A stretch of DNA of 33,147 bases from Planctomycetota bacterium (GTDB lineage: Bacteria > Planctomycetota > Phycisphaerae > Sedimentisphaerales > Anaerobacaceae): positions 664,097-697,243 of the forward strand of contig CP070715.1 in the NCBI GenBank assembly GCA_020350405.1. Direction: 5' to 3'. A model generated the notes under the pieces. The model saw only the letters and a list, made by a program, of their open reading frames with translations. It had not been told where the DNA came from and did no database searches. This document shows positions 27,363-31,525 of this stretch, one piece after another. How positions within the stretch are numbered: the stretch's first letter is position 1; each line of letters begins with the position of its first letter. The translations under genes were made by a program, and so were the position numbers.

Positions 27363-28142
27363 TTAGCTGATGTCCTGGCCCGCCACCGCCAAAACAAGCG
27401 CAAAGACCTTTGCTGCTCCCGCCTCTTTTAACGTCTTTGCGCACTCATTTAAAGTTGCGCCGGTCGTCTTAATATCATCCACAAGACAGATGCTCCGCCC
27501 CGCAAATCTATGTCCCCGCCGAACGGCAAACGCCCCGGCCACATTCCTCGCCCGCGCAGCGGGCGTCGCCATCAGCGGCTGCGATTTCGTCCGCCGGACT
27601 CTGACAAGCTCTGTATTAATCTTCGCTCTTGGATGTTTCAGCCTCTTGGCCAAAATCATCGACTGATTGTACCCGCGGGCAAATCGCCTCGACCAGTGCA
27701 AGGGAACAGGAACAAAAAATTCAATCTCGTCAATAAAGCCGCTTCCACCCAACGCGGAATTGACCAAAAAACCTAATGTCGAATCTAATTCCGTCCGGCC
27801 GTAGTACTTAAAAGTAAGTATCATTCTCTGCAGGCTCCCTGAGTAGAATCCAGACCTTGCTATCCCGTCGAAGTGTATCTTCCTGTCCTGGCAGTCAGCA
27901 CACATGCCCTCCACCAGTGCGTACCTGCTCACGTCCCGCCCGCAGCTGGGGCAGTAATCGGCGCCCGTACACGCCAGAAGCTGCCCCCAGCACTCCTTGC
28001 ACAGGCTCCGGTCGCGCTCGCAAATGCTCCGCTTGCAGTTGATACACACCGCCGGCCAGAGAAGATGATTCAATCCTCCTAACGCAAGCTCCCCTGCCTT
28101 TTTTAACCTGCCGGAAACCCCTTTTGCTCTTACCGTACCCAC
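27363..28142 (-). CDS. ComF family phosphoribosyltransferase-like protein
   Basis: The 259-residue protein has two paired-cysteine zinc motifs in its N-terminal third (CINCKRSICERDRSLCKEC, then CPSCGRDVSRYALVEGMCADC) and a type I phosphoribosyltransferase fold with SICLVDDIKTTGATLNEC as the PRPP loop. PVPLHWSRRFARGYNQS and RRTKSQPLM are also typical of ComF/GntX. The family is tied to DNA uptake in competent bacteria, but the enzyme reaction is not established. The start is GTG at 28142, seven bases after a TATAAT box. No other competence gene is nearby, although a prepilin-like gene lies 39 bases upstream on the same strand. Confidence 0.93.
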   Translation of the reverse strand: MGTVRAKGVSGRLKKAGELALGGLNHLLWPAVCINCKRSICERDRSLCKECWGQLLACTGADYCPSCGRDVSRYALVEGMCADCQDRKIHFDGIARSGFYSGSLQRMILTFKYYGRTELDSTLGFLVNSALGGSGFIDEIEFFVPVPLHWSRRFARGYNQSMILAKRLKHPRAKINTELVRVRRTKSQPLMATPAARARNVAGAFAVRRGHRFAGRSICLVDDIKTTGATLNECAKTLKEAGAAKVFALVLAVAGQDIS

Positions 28143-28180: not shown

Positions 28181-28957
28181 TTATTCCAAATCGTATGCGC
28201 TGTTATCAGCCGACAGAAAACCCGTCCCCTCCGCAATATTTGCCTTCTCGGATGCATGAGCCTCGGTAAAACACTCCTCCACCGACACAACAGACCCGTC
28301 ACACCACGCAACGTTTGTCTTGCCTAAGTGCCGATACCCCTGTGTCCCCGCATACCGACCGGAGAAATTCTCATCGAGCTTGCCCCCAAACGGCGAACGC
28401 ATAAACTTGTTCGCCCCCTCGCCCCACTGCCCGTCCCCGAAAAGCGCACACTTCTCCGGCCTGCGCACCTCACCGACCTTCGACGACATAACGACCGTCC
28501 CGCTCACCACCTCGCCGTCCTTCACCGCCGCCCTGCCCGCGATGTAACTCGTATTGTAATTGTAACCCGTATACTTATCTTCCCCCCAGTTCGCCGCGCC
28601 TTTAAATGCCGCGCACTGCTGAACCCTCTCCGTCGTCTCGCCCTGCCACATAAGACCCGGCTCAACGTATCTGTTCCCCGAATCATAAACCGTCGTAAAA
28701 TCCCACGCGCACAATTTATACACCGATCCATCCATCTCTGTTACCATCGCCATCGGAAAATAATCACCGTTCCCGTTCGCATACATCTGCGCCGCCATGG
28801 CTAACTGCCGCAGATTGCTCATACACAGAACACTTTTACCCTGCTGCCGCGCCCTCGCCAGAGCAGGCATCAACACCGCCATCAGCAGAGACACCACTGC
28901 TATCACCACGAGCACCTCTGTTAATGTAAACCCTTTTCTTCGCATACAGCGTCCCAT
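28181..28957 (-). CDS. Prepilin-type protein with H-X9-DG motif (planctomycete type II secretion pseudopilin-like)
   Basis: The 258-residue protein has a class III signal and pilin helix (RRKGFTLTEVLVVIAVVSLLMAV), cut by prepilin peptidase after the glycine. The rest is a globular domain ending with HLGKTNVAWCDG, the H-X9-DG motif common in planctomycete pseudopilin-like proteins encoded in many copies per genome. ATG 28957 begins three bases after the stop of the surface protein gene; ATG 28945 gives a more usual leader (MRRKGFT) and is also possible. It is the third gene after the cobalamin riboswitch and probably on that transcript. A structural or substrate-capturing surface role is inferred. 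Confidence 0.9.
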   Translation of the reverse strand: MGRCMRRKGFTLTEVLVVIAVVSLLMAVLMPALARARQQGKSVLCMSNLRQLAMAAQMYANGNGDYFPMAMVTEMDGSVYKLCAWDFTTVYDSGNRYVEPGLMWQGETTERVQQCAAFKGAANWGEDKYTGYNYNTSYIAGRAAVKDGEVVSGTVVMSSKVGEVRRPEKCALFGDGQWGEGANKFMRSPFGGKLDENFSGRYAGTQGYRHLGKTNVAWCDGSVVSVEECFTEAHASEKANIAEGTGFLSADNSAYDLE

Positions 28958-28960
28958 CTG

Positions 28961-29956
28961 TCACTCACACTCCCAGCTGCACCCTAACCAGTTATCAGTA
29001 ACTTCGGCAACATCCGACATGTCGTTCCAGTCCGCCGCCACAATCGCAAAGTCCAGCAGGTTCACTCTGCAGTCCGCGTTAAGGTCGCCCGCAGGATACT
29101 CATGCCTGTAGTCCCCGCAGCAGCTCACATCCGAAACCGCATCCACCTCCGGCGTCCCCAAACTGCACGGGTCCTCCTCTATCCTCACGTACTGAATCCA
29201 CTTCTGCCCCGTATTCGAATCAACCGCCAGCGCAGCATAATCGTTCGCGTCAAGTCCCTTTATATCAAAACCCACACCACCCGCCGAACCATCGTAAATC
29301 TCGATTATCTCAGCAACACTGTTGCCGTCAAAATCCGCCAACGTCAAATTCGGGTCCACCGGCCTCGTCGGGTCCAGCTCCTGCCCCCACTCGTCGTTAA
29401 CATCGTCCCACCGGTAGCTCGCCGTCGCCGCAAAATCATCCGCATAAGGCCCGTCCGCAAACGTATACCAGCTCGCACCGTCCTGACTTACCGAAACTAC
29501 GCCCAGCTCTTTATAAAACACAGTCCCGACCGTTACCGTCTCCGGGTCCGAACCCGGCCCCCACGACCCGCCGGACGCTATCCGCCACCTCGCATTGCCG
29601 AACATAATAAAATCAATACCATACGGATTGTTCTCATCGTCCCCCACCCGATGATTAAAACGCAGCACAAGCTCCCCGCCGCTGCCTACCGTCACCACCT
29701 CGAACGACCGCCACGCCGGGTACACCGGCACCACCGCCATCGGCACATTCGGGCCGATATCCATATCACCGGTCGTCTCCACCGTCGGCCGGCCGAGCGC
29801 GGTACTCGCCTGATTGTATGGTTCCAGATTAATCACGTCGTACTCCACACCAGTCCCCTCAACATAGCTCACCACCTCACACGCAAAATCATTCGCATCA
29901 TATCCTGTCACCGCCAACACCAGCAACATACTTACAGCTTCTAACAAAATTGACAT
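28961..29956 (-). CDS. Exported surface protein with dockerin-type C-terminus
   Basis: The protein has 331 residues from ATG 29956, which follows GAGAGGA; a TTG at 29983 would add nine residues. After a signal peptide (SILLEAVSMLLVLAVTG), residues 25-275 form a beta-rich domain without a name I can give. It contains GIDFIMFGNARW, VVSVSQDGASWYTFADG and a TLADFDGNSVAEIIEIYDGS stretch, reminiscent of cell surface proteins encoded beside B12 riboswitches in other phyla. The end (GDLNADCRVNLLDFAIVAADWN) is a dockerin-like EF-hand repeat common in Phycisphaerae. It is the second gene downstream of the cobalamin riboswitch. B12 binding is a hypothesis only. Confidence 0.85.
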   Translation of the reverse strand: MSILLEAVSMLLVLAVTGYDANDFACEVVSYVEGTGVEYDVINLEPYNQASTALGRPTVETTGDMDIGPNVPMAVVPVYPAWRSFEVVTVGSGGELVLRFNHRVGDDENNPYGIDFIMFGNARWRIASGGSWGPGSDPETVTVGTVFYKELGVVSVSQDGASWYTFADGPYADDFAATASYRWDDVNDEWGQELDPTRPVDPNLTLADFDGNSVAEIIEIYDGSAGGVGFDIKGLDANDYAALAVDSNTGQKWIQYVRIEEDPCSLGTPEVDAVSDVSCCGDYRHEYPAGDLNADCRVNLLDFAIVAADWNDMSDVAEVTDNWLGCSWECE

Positions 29957-29998
29957 CCAACACGTCCTCTCATTTCTGCCCAAGCTGCAACATATATA

Positions 29999-30020
29999 GG
30001 CCCCACGTTCCCGTGGGGCC
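29999..30020 (-). other. Strong intergenic hairpin after the PEP-CTERM gene
   Basis: GGCCCCACG and CGTGGGGCC form a perfect 9-bp GC-rich stem with a 4-base loop between the PEP-CTERM gene and the surface protein gene. On the minus strand it is followed by TATATATG, not a T-run, so it is more likely an mRNA-stabilising or partially terminating element than a full terminator. Confidence 0.5.
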
Positions 30021-30039
30021 CGTTCTGTCCATCAACCGC

Positions 30040-30570
30040 CTACCCATACCGTCTCCTTCGAAGCAAAATTACCCCGCCGGCCAATAGCACTACCGTCGCC
30101 GGCTCCGGCACCGGAGCTCCGCCCCGACCGTAAATCCAGCCGTCCATGTCACCATCGCCGACCACCCGGCTCGACACACCATAAAGCGGCGACGTCCAGC
30201 CCGTATCACCCCAGTCTCTAATCCAGTAGTGCCACCAATCCTCGCCCCCGCCGTACCCGCCGCTGTAATGACCCAGATACTGTATGCTGTCAACAAACAA
30301 GTCCGGCTCTTCCACAGTTCCCCAGTTCGTATACGCCAAAGTAAAATCCGTAAGCTCACTGTCCAAAGTCAGCAGCAAATCCGCCCCCGTCACCGTGTCG
30401 GATGAGCTCTGACCGAAGCATACCTCAAATTCCCCTATGAACCCGTCCGACCACTCAATATACACCTCCGCCCAATTCACACCCGTCCCCACAGAAACCG
30501 GCGCCGCCACGCTCGAACTGCCCGCCAGCGCCAAAACAATGGTTAAATTCATTATTCTTCCTGAGGACAT
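30040..30570 (-). CDS. PEP-CTERM sorting domain protein
   Basis: The 176-residue protein starts at ATG 30570 behind AGGAG; the frame opens six codons earlier. It has a signal peptide (RIMNLTIVLALAGSSSVAA), a beta-rich middle with many Trp/Tyr/Gly residues (HYSGGYGGGEDWWHYWIRDWG) and a C-terminal PVPEPATVVLLAGGVILLRRRRYG: the PEP motif, a membrane helix and a basic tail, which are recognised by exosortase. It is the first gene after the cobalamin riboswitch and its terminator, so its expression should rise when B12 is scarce. The aromatic-rich middle could bind a flat ligand, but this is speculation. Confidence 0.88.
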   Translation of the reverse strand: MSSGRIMNLTIVLALAGSSSVAAPVSVGTGVNWAEVYIEWSDGFIGEFEVCFGQSSSDTVTGADLLLTLDSELTDFTLAYTNWGTVEEPDLFVDSIQYLGHYSGGYGGGEDWWHYWIRDWGDTGWTSPLYGVSSRVVGDGDMDGWIYGRGGAPVPEPATVVLLAGGVILLRRRRYG

Positions 30571-30699
30571 TTTTTTCTCCTGTACCAATTCAAAAATTTC
30601 ACAATCTTCTGTTAACTTTTCACTTCTCCTTTTTAACTTTCCCCTTTTTATGCTCTCCTTTCATTCTCACTTGCCCCTTATCGCGAGGGGCCTGTTAAT

Positions 30700-30735
30700 G
30701 AAAAAAACCGCCGTTCCCGCGAAAGGAACGACGGC
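30700..30735 (-). terminator. Intrinsic terminator, likely expression platform of the cobalamin riboswitch
   Basis: On the minus strand an 11-bp stem (arms 30725-30735 and 30707-30717, two G-U pairs) with a 7-base loop is followed by seven T residues (30701-30707). It lies 97 bases after the riboswitch and 130 bases before the first gene, the place expected for a transcription-attenuation platform. No other gene ends here, so it has no other obvious use. Between it and the riboswitch lies a repeated CCCGGCCG (30752-30759 and 30779-30786) that could take part in an alternative fold. Confidence 0.75.
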
Positions 30736-30831
30736 TTTAATACCAACACAGCCCGGCCGTAAATCAAGAATATCAACACCCGGCCGATGCCTACTTGCGC
30801 TCCAATACGCGAGAACACGCAAATAATCTAA

Positions 30832-31107
30832 CTAACTGCAGGCAGGTTTTCTGACTTGCGCCTTACCGAGAAACGCCTTCCCATCCGCTCAGCCTCCGTC
30901 TCGCGAACTTCGCAAAACCGACACCCTCTATGCGAACAGTGGAAAGGGCCGCCAAACGCCAGATTCCGCGCTTGGCAAACCTCACTTATGTCTCTCGGAC
31001 TTCCGACCTTAATCGGAGCAGACGCGCACAGCGGCGCGACCGTCTCGGATTCTAACCGAGTTCCCGTTTGACTATCCGAAAGCACACGCTTTCGGACCTG
31101 CAGTCAG
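30832..31107 (-). promoter_or_regulatory. Cobalamin riboswitch (adenosylcobalamin type)
   Basis: The minus strand carries the complete conserved layout. The 3' B12 box AGTCAGAAAACCTGCC is at 30841-30856. The core, starting GGGAACTCGGTTAGAATCC and continuing through CGCCGCTGT, is at 31023-31065. CCACTG is at 30937-30942, with a GGGAAGGCG segment before the B12 box. The closing P1 stem is CTGACTGCAG (31098-31107) with CTGCAGTTAG (30832-30841), ten pairs with one G-U. P2 is a perfect 8-bp hairpin at 31075-31096. Bound cobalamin should favour the downstream terminator at 30700-30735 and shut off the PEP-CTERM, surface protein and prepilin genes. The 670 bases between the PEP-CTERM gene and the dockerin remnant hold only this element, the terminator and a possible promoter. 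Confidence 0.93.
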
Positions 31108-31140
31108 ACTCTATTACCTTGTAAAAGACCAATCTCCCTT

Positions 31141-31237: not shown

Positions 31238-31525
31238 CTACCTCAACGGGCACGGACTACTTACCGAATTCTGCCCCAGTATCCCCCGCCGCATCGCGTT
31301 CGCGATTGACCTGTCCGCCACGTTCACAACACCATCGCAGTTCACAGCACAGTCACGCAGCGTATAAGGCGCTGCCGAACCCGTCCGCCAGAATACATTC
31401 GCTATCGAACCGTCCGCGGCGTTCACCGCCCCGTAATTATTAATATCACCTAACAGTGCTATCGCGAACCAGTTTGCCTTGTACGTTACATCCTCAGCGG
31501 CAAAATGTCCCGAAGTTGTTTCATA
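31238..31525 (-). pseudogene. Remnant of a dockerin-domain protein (C-terminal tail only)
   Basis: An open frame without a start codon runs from just after a stop at 31526-31528 to a stop at 31238-31240. Its 95 residues look like the end of a secreted planctomycete protein: HFAAEDVTYKANWFAIAL is followed by two EF-hand-type dockerin repeats, LLGDINNYGAVNAADGSIAN and VNCDGVVNVADRSIANAMRR. A GTG at 31424 could start only half a domain, so this is probably a broken gene end and not a small gene. It begins nine bases after the intact Gfo/Idh/MocA gene stops, which suggests that a deletion or recombination joined the two. Confidence 0.7.

Follow-up and report, generated by a model that had tools for sequence, protein, structure and literature searches.

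A cobalamin riboswitch operon of planctomycetes with two putative corrinoid-binding surface proteins and a dedicated prepilin

The riboswitch and its three genes

The stretch of DNA analyzed here, called below the window (33,147 nucleotides, nt), belongs to the genome of an uncultured Planctomycetota bacterium of the order Sedimentisphaerales (assembly GCA_020350405.1, contig CP070715.1, positions 664,097 to 697,243), designated G000. Its minus strand carries a cobalamin riboswitch with an intrinsic terminator, followed on the same strand by three genes that code for a PEP-CTERM protein, a surface protein and a prepilin, with spacings of 83 nt and 3 nt. We have compared this operon with 61 genomes of the same order, and the genome counts given throughout are not independent events. 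The main features, by position in the window, are the following:

30824..31116 (-), cobalamin riboswitch aptamer, RF00174 (cmscan)
30704..30738 (-), intrinsic terminator (expression platform) with a 15-pair stem, a 5-nt loop and a U tail
30040..30570 (-), gene 1, exported PEP-CTERM protein of 176 amino acids (TIGR02595, AlphaFold, Foldseek, VIA)
30121..30492 (-), predicted transcobalamin-beta-like domain of gene 1, residues 27-150 (range aligned by VIA)
30049..30114 (-), PEP-CTERM sorting signal of gene 1
28961..29956 (-), gene 2, exported surface protein of 331 amino acids with a predicted BtuH-type domain and a dockerin-like tail (AlphaFold, VIA)
29123..29902 (-), predicted BtuH-like domain of gene 2, residues 19-278 (aligned to residues 315-592 of 7biz_A)
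29024..29092 (-), dockerin-like calcium-loop segment of gene 2 (PF00404 below threshold; family profile)
28181..28957 (-), gene 3, type IV-like prepilin of 258 amino acids with an H-X9-DG motif (PF07963, TIGR04294)

The aptamer at 31116-30824(-) matched the full RF00174 model (positions 1-189) with 57 bits against a gathering score of 31.5 (E 8.9e-12), and it is the sole match in the whole 2.96-Mb genome. With 293 nt it is longer than usual and contains a large insertion within the variable region. The terminator (30738-30704) begins 86 nt past the aptamer, and the RNA from one to the other folds far more strongly than its shuffles (z -6.2). A terminator was also found 56-200 nt past the aptamer in 47 of 50 homologous loci, where 0.1 would be expected in mononucleotide shuffles. 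Cobamide would probably be bound by this riboswitch and repress the genes behind it.

An earlier note, made from the letters of the DNA, had described a full riboswitch on the minus strand, an intrinsic terminator behind it, three tightly spaced genes (PEP-CTERM, dockerin-tailed and prepilin-like) on one strand and no btuB or btuC in the window. All of this holds: Infernal with the Rfam cobalamin model gave the match well over the gathering score described above, and the absence of btuB and btuC is borne out by the position of the only BtuC-type permease of the genome, ~0.93 Mb away, and by the failure to find any TonB-dependent receptor. A B12-independent isozyme as the identity of the three genes was considered and rejected, since none of them matched an enzyme.

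Predicted folds of the first two gene products

The best start of gene 1 is the ATG at 30570, with AGGAG upstream, and its stop lies at 30040. The sorting signal was recognized by the NCBIfam model TIGR02595 (19.9 bits, cut-off 16) and fell slightly below the cut-off of the Pfam PEP-CTERM model (18.8 versus 20.7 bits). An exosortase is encoded in G000 (PF09721, 178 bits). With E values up to 10 allowed, the Pfam matches of gene 1 other than PEP-CTERM were scattered noise. An AlphaFold model made from an alignment of 15 relatives (predicted local distance difference test, pLDDT, 80.6) was compared with the whole PDB, and Foldseek ranks 1 to 15 were all transcobalamin, haptocorrin, intrinsic factor or the bacterial structure 3u7z (RUMGNA_00854), which we take to be a DUF4430-type protein. 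The aligner VIA placed intrinsic factor (2pmv) at Z 12.8 over 107 residues with a root mean square deviation (rmsd) of 2.4 Å, haptocorrin at Z 12.7 and transcobalamin at Z 12.2, with the next unrelated fold at Z 6.7. Gene 1 is therefore predicted to have, in residues 27-150, the fold of the intrinsic factor/transcobalamin beta domain, shared also with 3u7z (Z 11-13, rmsd 2.1-2.6 Å among these structures). In intrinsic factor, haptocorrin and transcobalamin this beta domain is one of the two that enclose cobalamin. Unlike these carriers, gene 1 has no alpha-barrel domain, bears a PEP-CTERM anchor and shares ~12% identity with them; unlike DUF4430-type proteins, it has no Pfam DUF4430 match. Going by the modelled structure, cobalamin binding by the gene 1 product is strongly supported by computation.

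The gene 2 model (15-sequence alignment, pLDDT 83.5) had as its best VIA match 7biz, the surface B12-binding lipoprotein BtuH of Bacteroides thetaiotaomicron, with Z 12.8, 160 aligned residues and 24% identity, and the next match followed at Z 9.0. The identification rests on this second aligner, because the top Foldseek list for gene 2 showed weak discoidin or CBM32-like matches alone. The C-terminal domain of BtuH, with which residues 19-278 of gene 2 align, holds B12 in the crystal (PMC8941943); the B12-contact residues described for BtuH2 are Gln333, Asn399, His476, Tyr510, Trp511 and Trp577. A modest similarity between BtuH and AlyQ was seen by the BtuH authors (PMC8941943), and AlyQ likewise appears in the VIA list for gene 2. 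The model thus assigns a BtuH-type domain to gene 2, and binding of B12 by its predicted product is strongly supported by computation. Both gene 2 and BtuH code for riboswitch-linked surface proteins. Unlike BtuH, gene 2 bears a dockerin-like tail and neighbours a pilin gene instead of btuB, and its likeness to BtuH was not picked up by sequence profiles; linkage to btuB is not universal among BtuH loci either (PMC8941943). The tail in the single protein scored 14.1 bits with PF00404, under the cut-off of 22.9, and the gene-2 family profile matched solved dockerins with E 4e-6.

Gene 2 also matches weakly the Leptospira LIC_13355 lipoprotein family (NF033170, E 9e-4; one relative E 1e-4), and members of this family might likewise bind corrinoids.

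Conservation of the gene set and links to known B12 genes

RF00174 was found in 55 of the 61 genomes of the order. The comparison of 61 riboswitch loci revealed a constant order in 50 of them, one or two exported binding-type proteins and then the prepilin. Several of the 11 loci with no prepilin match reach the end of a contig (L036, L041, L054 and L088, for example), and five are second riboswitches in genomes that carry the module elsewhere (L058, L069, L071, L082 and L086). Locus L033 of genome G004 is unexplained. Here (G004:C218:453-699) a gene that reads as ClpX stands behind the riboswitch match in place of the module, and the DUF4465 gene of G004 (see below) is on another contig, which ends before its riboswitch position; possibly this is an assembly break. 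An apparent loss of the operon in G001, a genome of the same genus as G000, was rejected because the assembly has a run of N at that place.

Searches with the individual genes lead to the same loci. The gene 1 domain profile (A5) had 23 matches in 19 of the 61 genomes, all of them 202-883 nt downstream of a cobalamin riboswitch and on its strand. The strong full-length matches of gene 2 were all at riboswitch loci, and the rest were mostly to the dockerin-like tail alone. Among 294 genomes sampled more widely from the phylum, the gene 1 domain was found in eight outside the order. RF00174 was present in the short stretches taken from five of these (L206, L208, L209/L214/L215, L212 and L213) and was not found in those of the other three (L207, L210 and L211).

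The first position of the operon is exchanged between families. It is filled in other genomes of the order by DUF4465 (PF14717; E 2.3e-56 in one case), present in 28 of the 61 genomes with one copy each, 25 behind a detected riboswitch and three at contig ends. G000 has no match to PF14717. DUF4465 and the transcobalamin-like domain were never together in any of the 61 genomes (for independent genomes, an assumption that does not hold, the chance probability would be 2.8e-7), and the exchange occurs within families f1, f2, f4 and f5 and even within genus g37. Gene 2 has a homologue in the second gene of operons of the DUF4465 type (hhalign probability 99.6, E 9e-24). All eight DUF4465 proteins put to the test, including one of the planctomycete Mucisphaera calidilacus, bound B12 (PMC13398666). 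A proven B12 binder is therefore accepted in the first slot of the same operon under the same switch, and this argues strongly for the same function of gene 1. Thus, BtuJ/DUF4465 (PF14717; PMC12751083, PMC13398666) occupies in ~25 sister genomes the place that in the window belongs to a gene of another fold. Further genomes have beta-propeller proteins in this position, recalling BtuG and related beta-propeller surface proteins. These sister propellers are of the pyrroloquinoline quinone (PQQ) type or unclassified, and there is none in the window operon.

The earlier note had raised the possibility that the three families recur behind planctomycete cobalamin riboswitches and that some of these loci end in btu genes. 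The recurrence was found in nearly every riboswitch-bearing genome of the order, and the extension in several. In G048 (L079) the genes that come after the pilin gene, on its strand, are cobT, cobS, cobC, btuF, btuD, btuC and btuR, and in G040 (L070) and G045 (L076) btuF, btuD and btuC lie directly 3' of it; cobS, cobC and part of the btu genes in these three genomes were recognized from sequence together with cluster membership. A BtuC-type gene is located ~5 kb downstream on the same strand in G057 and G060, and a corrinoid salvage cluster (cobS, cobT, cobU and btuC clusters) is convergent beside the module in G007.

Some second riboswitches control other genes. L071 (G040) is an operon with cobC, cobU, cobT, cobS, a TonB-dependent receptor and btuF-btuD-btuC; G040 therefore combines a BtuB-type with a pilin-type system. 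At L082 (G050) and L086 (G054) the gene ~170 nt behind the riboswitch reads as an anaerobic class III ribonucleotide reductase, followed at L082 by an activase-like gene, both read from sequence only; this arrangement would be the expected logic of B12-independent isozymes.

On a wider scale, with taxon names taken from record titles, the gene-2 profile was run against 84,980 named genomes and gave 298 relatives. The best 80 loci included the transcobalamin-like domain in 68 and a pilin in 74, and at 20 of the 68 the transcobalamin-like domain was fused with the gene-2 domain in a single protein. RF00174 was found at gene-2 loci in Kiritimatiellae, Lentisphaerae, Verrucomicrobia, Armatimonadetes and Zipacnadia, as well as at 13 of 16 further planctomycete loci. 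Some gene-2 loci of rumen Kiritimatiellae and Verrucomicrobia had no riboswitch above the gathering score; since their neighbours scored just 33-50 bits, these may be divergent aptamers. The locus L184 of Armatimonadetes has the order riboswitch, pilin, gene 2, gene 1, and the persistence of the set despite this permutation argues for a joint function. We found no description of this module in the open-access literature searched.

Two further features flank or interrupt the operon in the window:

29998..30021 (-), stem-loop between genes 1 and 2, 10-pair stem followed by ATATATGTTG
27363..28142 (-), ComF-like double-zinc-ribbon phosphoribosyltransferase gene (PF18912 and PF00156)

The stem-loop is strong and GC-rich. 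It is possibly a partial terminator or a processing site, and the transcript of gene 1 might exceed that of gene 2. The ComF-like gene (28142-27363) starts 38 nt past the prepilin gene and may be co-transcribed with it. Such a gene is found 3' of the pilin in 28 of the 50 module loci of the order, mostly less than 300 nt away. It was not seen in the loci of other phyla examined, and for this reason we leave its membership in the operon as uncertain; a role in corrinoid remodelling or in competence would be speculation. On the other side, between an upstream oxidoreductase gene and the riboswitch, a short open frame at 31238-31426(-) resembles dockerin-type repeats (NAADGSIANVF, CDGVVNVADRSIAN) and is perhaps the remnant of a surface-protein gene.

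The dedicated prepilin and the passage of B12

Gene 3 shares with the DUF1559/H-X9-DG prepilins the N-methylation motif (PF07963, 31.4 bits, cut-off 21.2) and the H-X9-DG motif (TIGR04294, 20.1 bits). Unlike these prepilins in general, it belongs to a single clade tied to cobalamin riboswitches. The 20 best relatives in the 61 genomes (at least 216 bits) are every one at a riboswitch locus, and matches outside such loci stay below ~100 bits, despite the 37 prepilin matches in G000. The gene is thus a member of a dedicated clade, clearly apart from its ~36 paralogs. Of all genes in the set, the pilin is retained most constantly, and it is the binders that are exchanged. Probably it is not a B12 binder itself. 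Its product may be assembled into a fibre, and G000 has pilus assembly parts, including seven secretins and many pilus and secretion ATPases. Gold-labelled dextran attaches to the pili-like fibres of planctomycetes, in which the route taken by macromolecules to the periplasm is unclear (PMC5394234). The open-access literature searched held no pilin linked to B12 uptake.

Elsewhere in G000 there is a locus (L112, 4964-7686(+)) where BtuF-like, BtuC-type and BtuD-like genes adjoin the B12-dependent ribonucleotide reductase NrdJ (1346 bits, cut-off 859). No RF00174 was found there. The same locus includes a gene for a Dph6/DUF71-type ATP pyrophosphatase, which hints at a role of this protein in B12 metabolism. 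A search for TonB-dependent receptors (PF00593) gave no match and zero first-look candidates in the G000 assembly, which is 84% complete. Receptors of this type were present in 34 of the 61 genomes and not found in 27, near-complete ones included; 17 of these 27 carry the pilin module and a BtuC-type permease, and seven of the 17 are at least 90% complete.

Together these data make it very probable that the window contains a cobamide-repressed operon for the capture of corrinoids at the cell surface. When cobamide is scarce the aptamer would be empty, the terminator at 30738-30704 would not form and the genes would be transcribed, and when it is plentiful transcription would end at this terminator. 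The gene 1 product would be exported and sorted to the surface by the exosortase, where its beta domain may bind corrinoid, and the gene 2 product, with its BtuH-type domain and calcium-binding tail, would also bind corrinoid and probably work beside it. The pseudopilin encoded by gene 3, dedicated to both, could tether or present the binders on a pilus-like fibre or drive their passage through the outer membrane. BtuFCD, encoded at the unlinked locus, would finally take the corrinoid into the cell, where enzymes such as the B12-dependent ribonucleotide reductase would use it. The earlier note had seen in these genes a planctomycete counterpart of the surface B12-binding proteins of Bacteroidetes, an idea supported by the two proteins with predicted folds of B12-binding domains. 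Its proposal that the exported proteins capture corrinoids is supported, on these models, for genes 1 and 2 and probably does not hold for the prepilin. Its statement that the function would be new was too strong for the binding step, since BtuH-type and DUF4465-type capture were already known, and keeps its value for the transcobalamin-type domain, the dedicated prepilin and the apparent lack of BtuB.

Several points weigh against this reading. Both fold assignments come from predicted models built on 15-sequence alignments; the best Foldseek E for gene 1 was 1.2e-3, and the superposition of gene 2 on BtuH has an rmsd of 4.0 Å. Searches of solved structures by sequence recovered neither BtuH nor transcobalamin, the profiles A2, A3 and A4 did not recover 7biz at E up to 5-10, and none of the 15 gene-1 family members matched Pfam DUF4430 at E up to 10. 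The fold alone is no proof of binding, as BtuK1 binds B12 and BtuK2 does not (PMC12751083). The operon of G000 adjoins no btu or cob gene, and the role that we infer for the pilin in the operon is pure inference.

The last point leads to the strongest alternative, in which the exported pair does bind cobamide, the prepilin merely secretes, assembles or tethers it as a type II-like pseudopilin, and B12 enters by an ordinary porin or receptor that was not recognized. We regard this as a serious contender, falling only a little short of an even chance. Planctomycetes carry tens of such prepilins per genome, so the use of pseudopilins is general, and the secretins and ATPases of G000 would serve such a role as well. 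The receptors of the 34 relatives, with the one in the second riboswitch operon of G040, also indicate that the module is not a simple replacement everywhere. This explanation has to face the 27 genomes in which receptors were not found, including near-complete ones with the module and a BtuC-type permease, and the constancy of the pilin while the binders are exchanged. The pilin fits a capture fibre, and a role limited to secretion or tethering is at least as likely. A bolder version of surface capture is a TonB-independent cobamide route, in which a pseudopilin fibre carries the transcobalamin-type and BtuH-type binders and its dynamics pull the corrinoid through a secretin-like pore to BtuF, replacing BtuB in many planctomycetes and related phyla. 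We consider this route tentative and, taken as a whole, rather unlikely.

It is quite improbable that low B12 induces instead adhesion proteins and a pilin, none of them binding B12, by which the bacterium would attach itself to B12-producing cells, algae or particles. Adhesion and matrix proteins do often have PEP-CTERM, dockerin-like and pilin features, and the fold of gene 2 also resembles carbohydrate-binding modules, at a lower score. However, both proteins come closest in predicted structure to B12-binding domains, and a proven one replaces gene 1 in sister genomes. That the riboswitch is a relic or belongs elsewhere, with the genes behind it by chance, would suit genes that have no B12 annotation in a genome whose btuF-btuC locus is elsewhere, but it is hardly credible and already refuted by conservation, given the conserved terminator and the recurrence of the set, at times in permuted order, behind the cobalamin riboswitches of dozens of genomes from several phyla.

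The best-known examples of B12 capture at the surface come from gut Bacteroidetes, in which the vitamin is passed on to the TonB-dependent receptor BtuB. The set described here joins a BtuH-type domain with the fold that humans use in intrinsic factor and transcobalamin, both as predicted, and occurs in Planctomycetota, Kiritimatiellae, Lentisphaerae, Verrucomicrobia and Armatimonadetes. Folds and distribution together suggest a mode of B12 uptake that has not been described. For the 17 of 61 genomes with the module and a BtuC-type permease and no detectable receptor, how a 1.3-kDa vitamin crosses the outer membrane becomes a concrete question, and the dedicated pilin is an obvious candidate. 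The finding also provides a testable function for PEP-CTERM and prepilin genes, of which these phyla have many, most of them unexplained.

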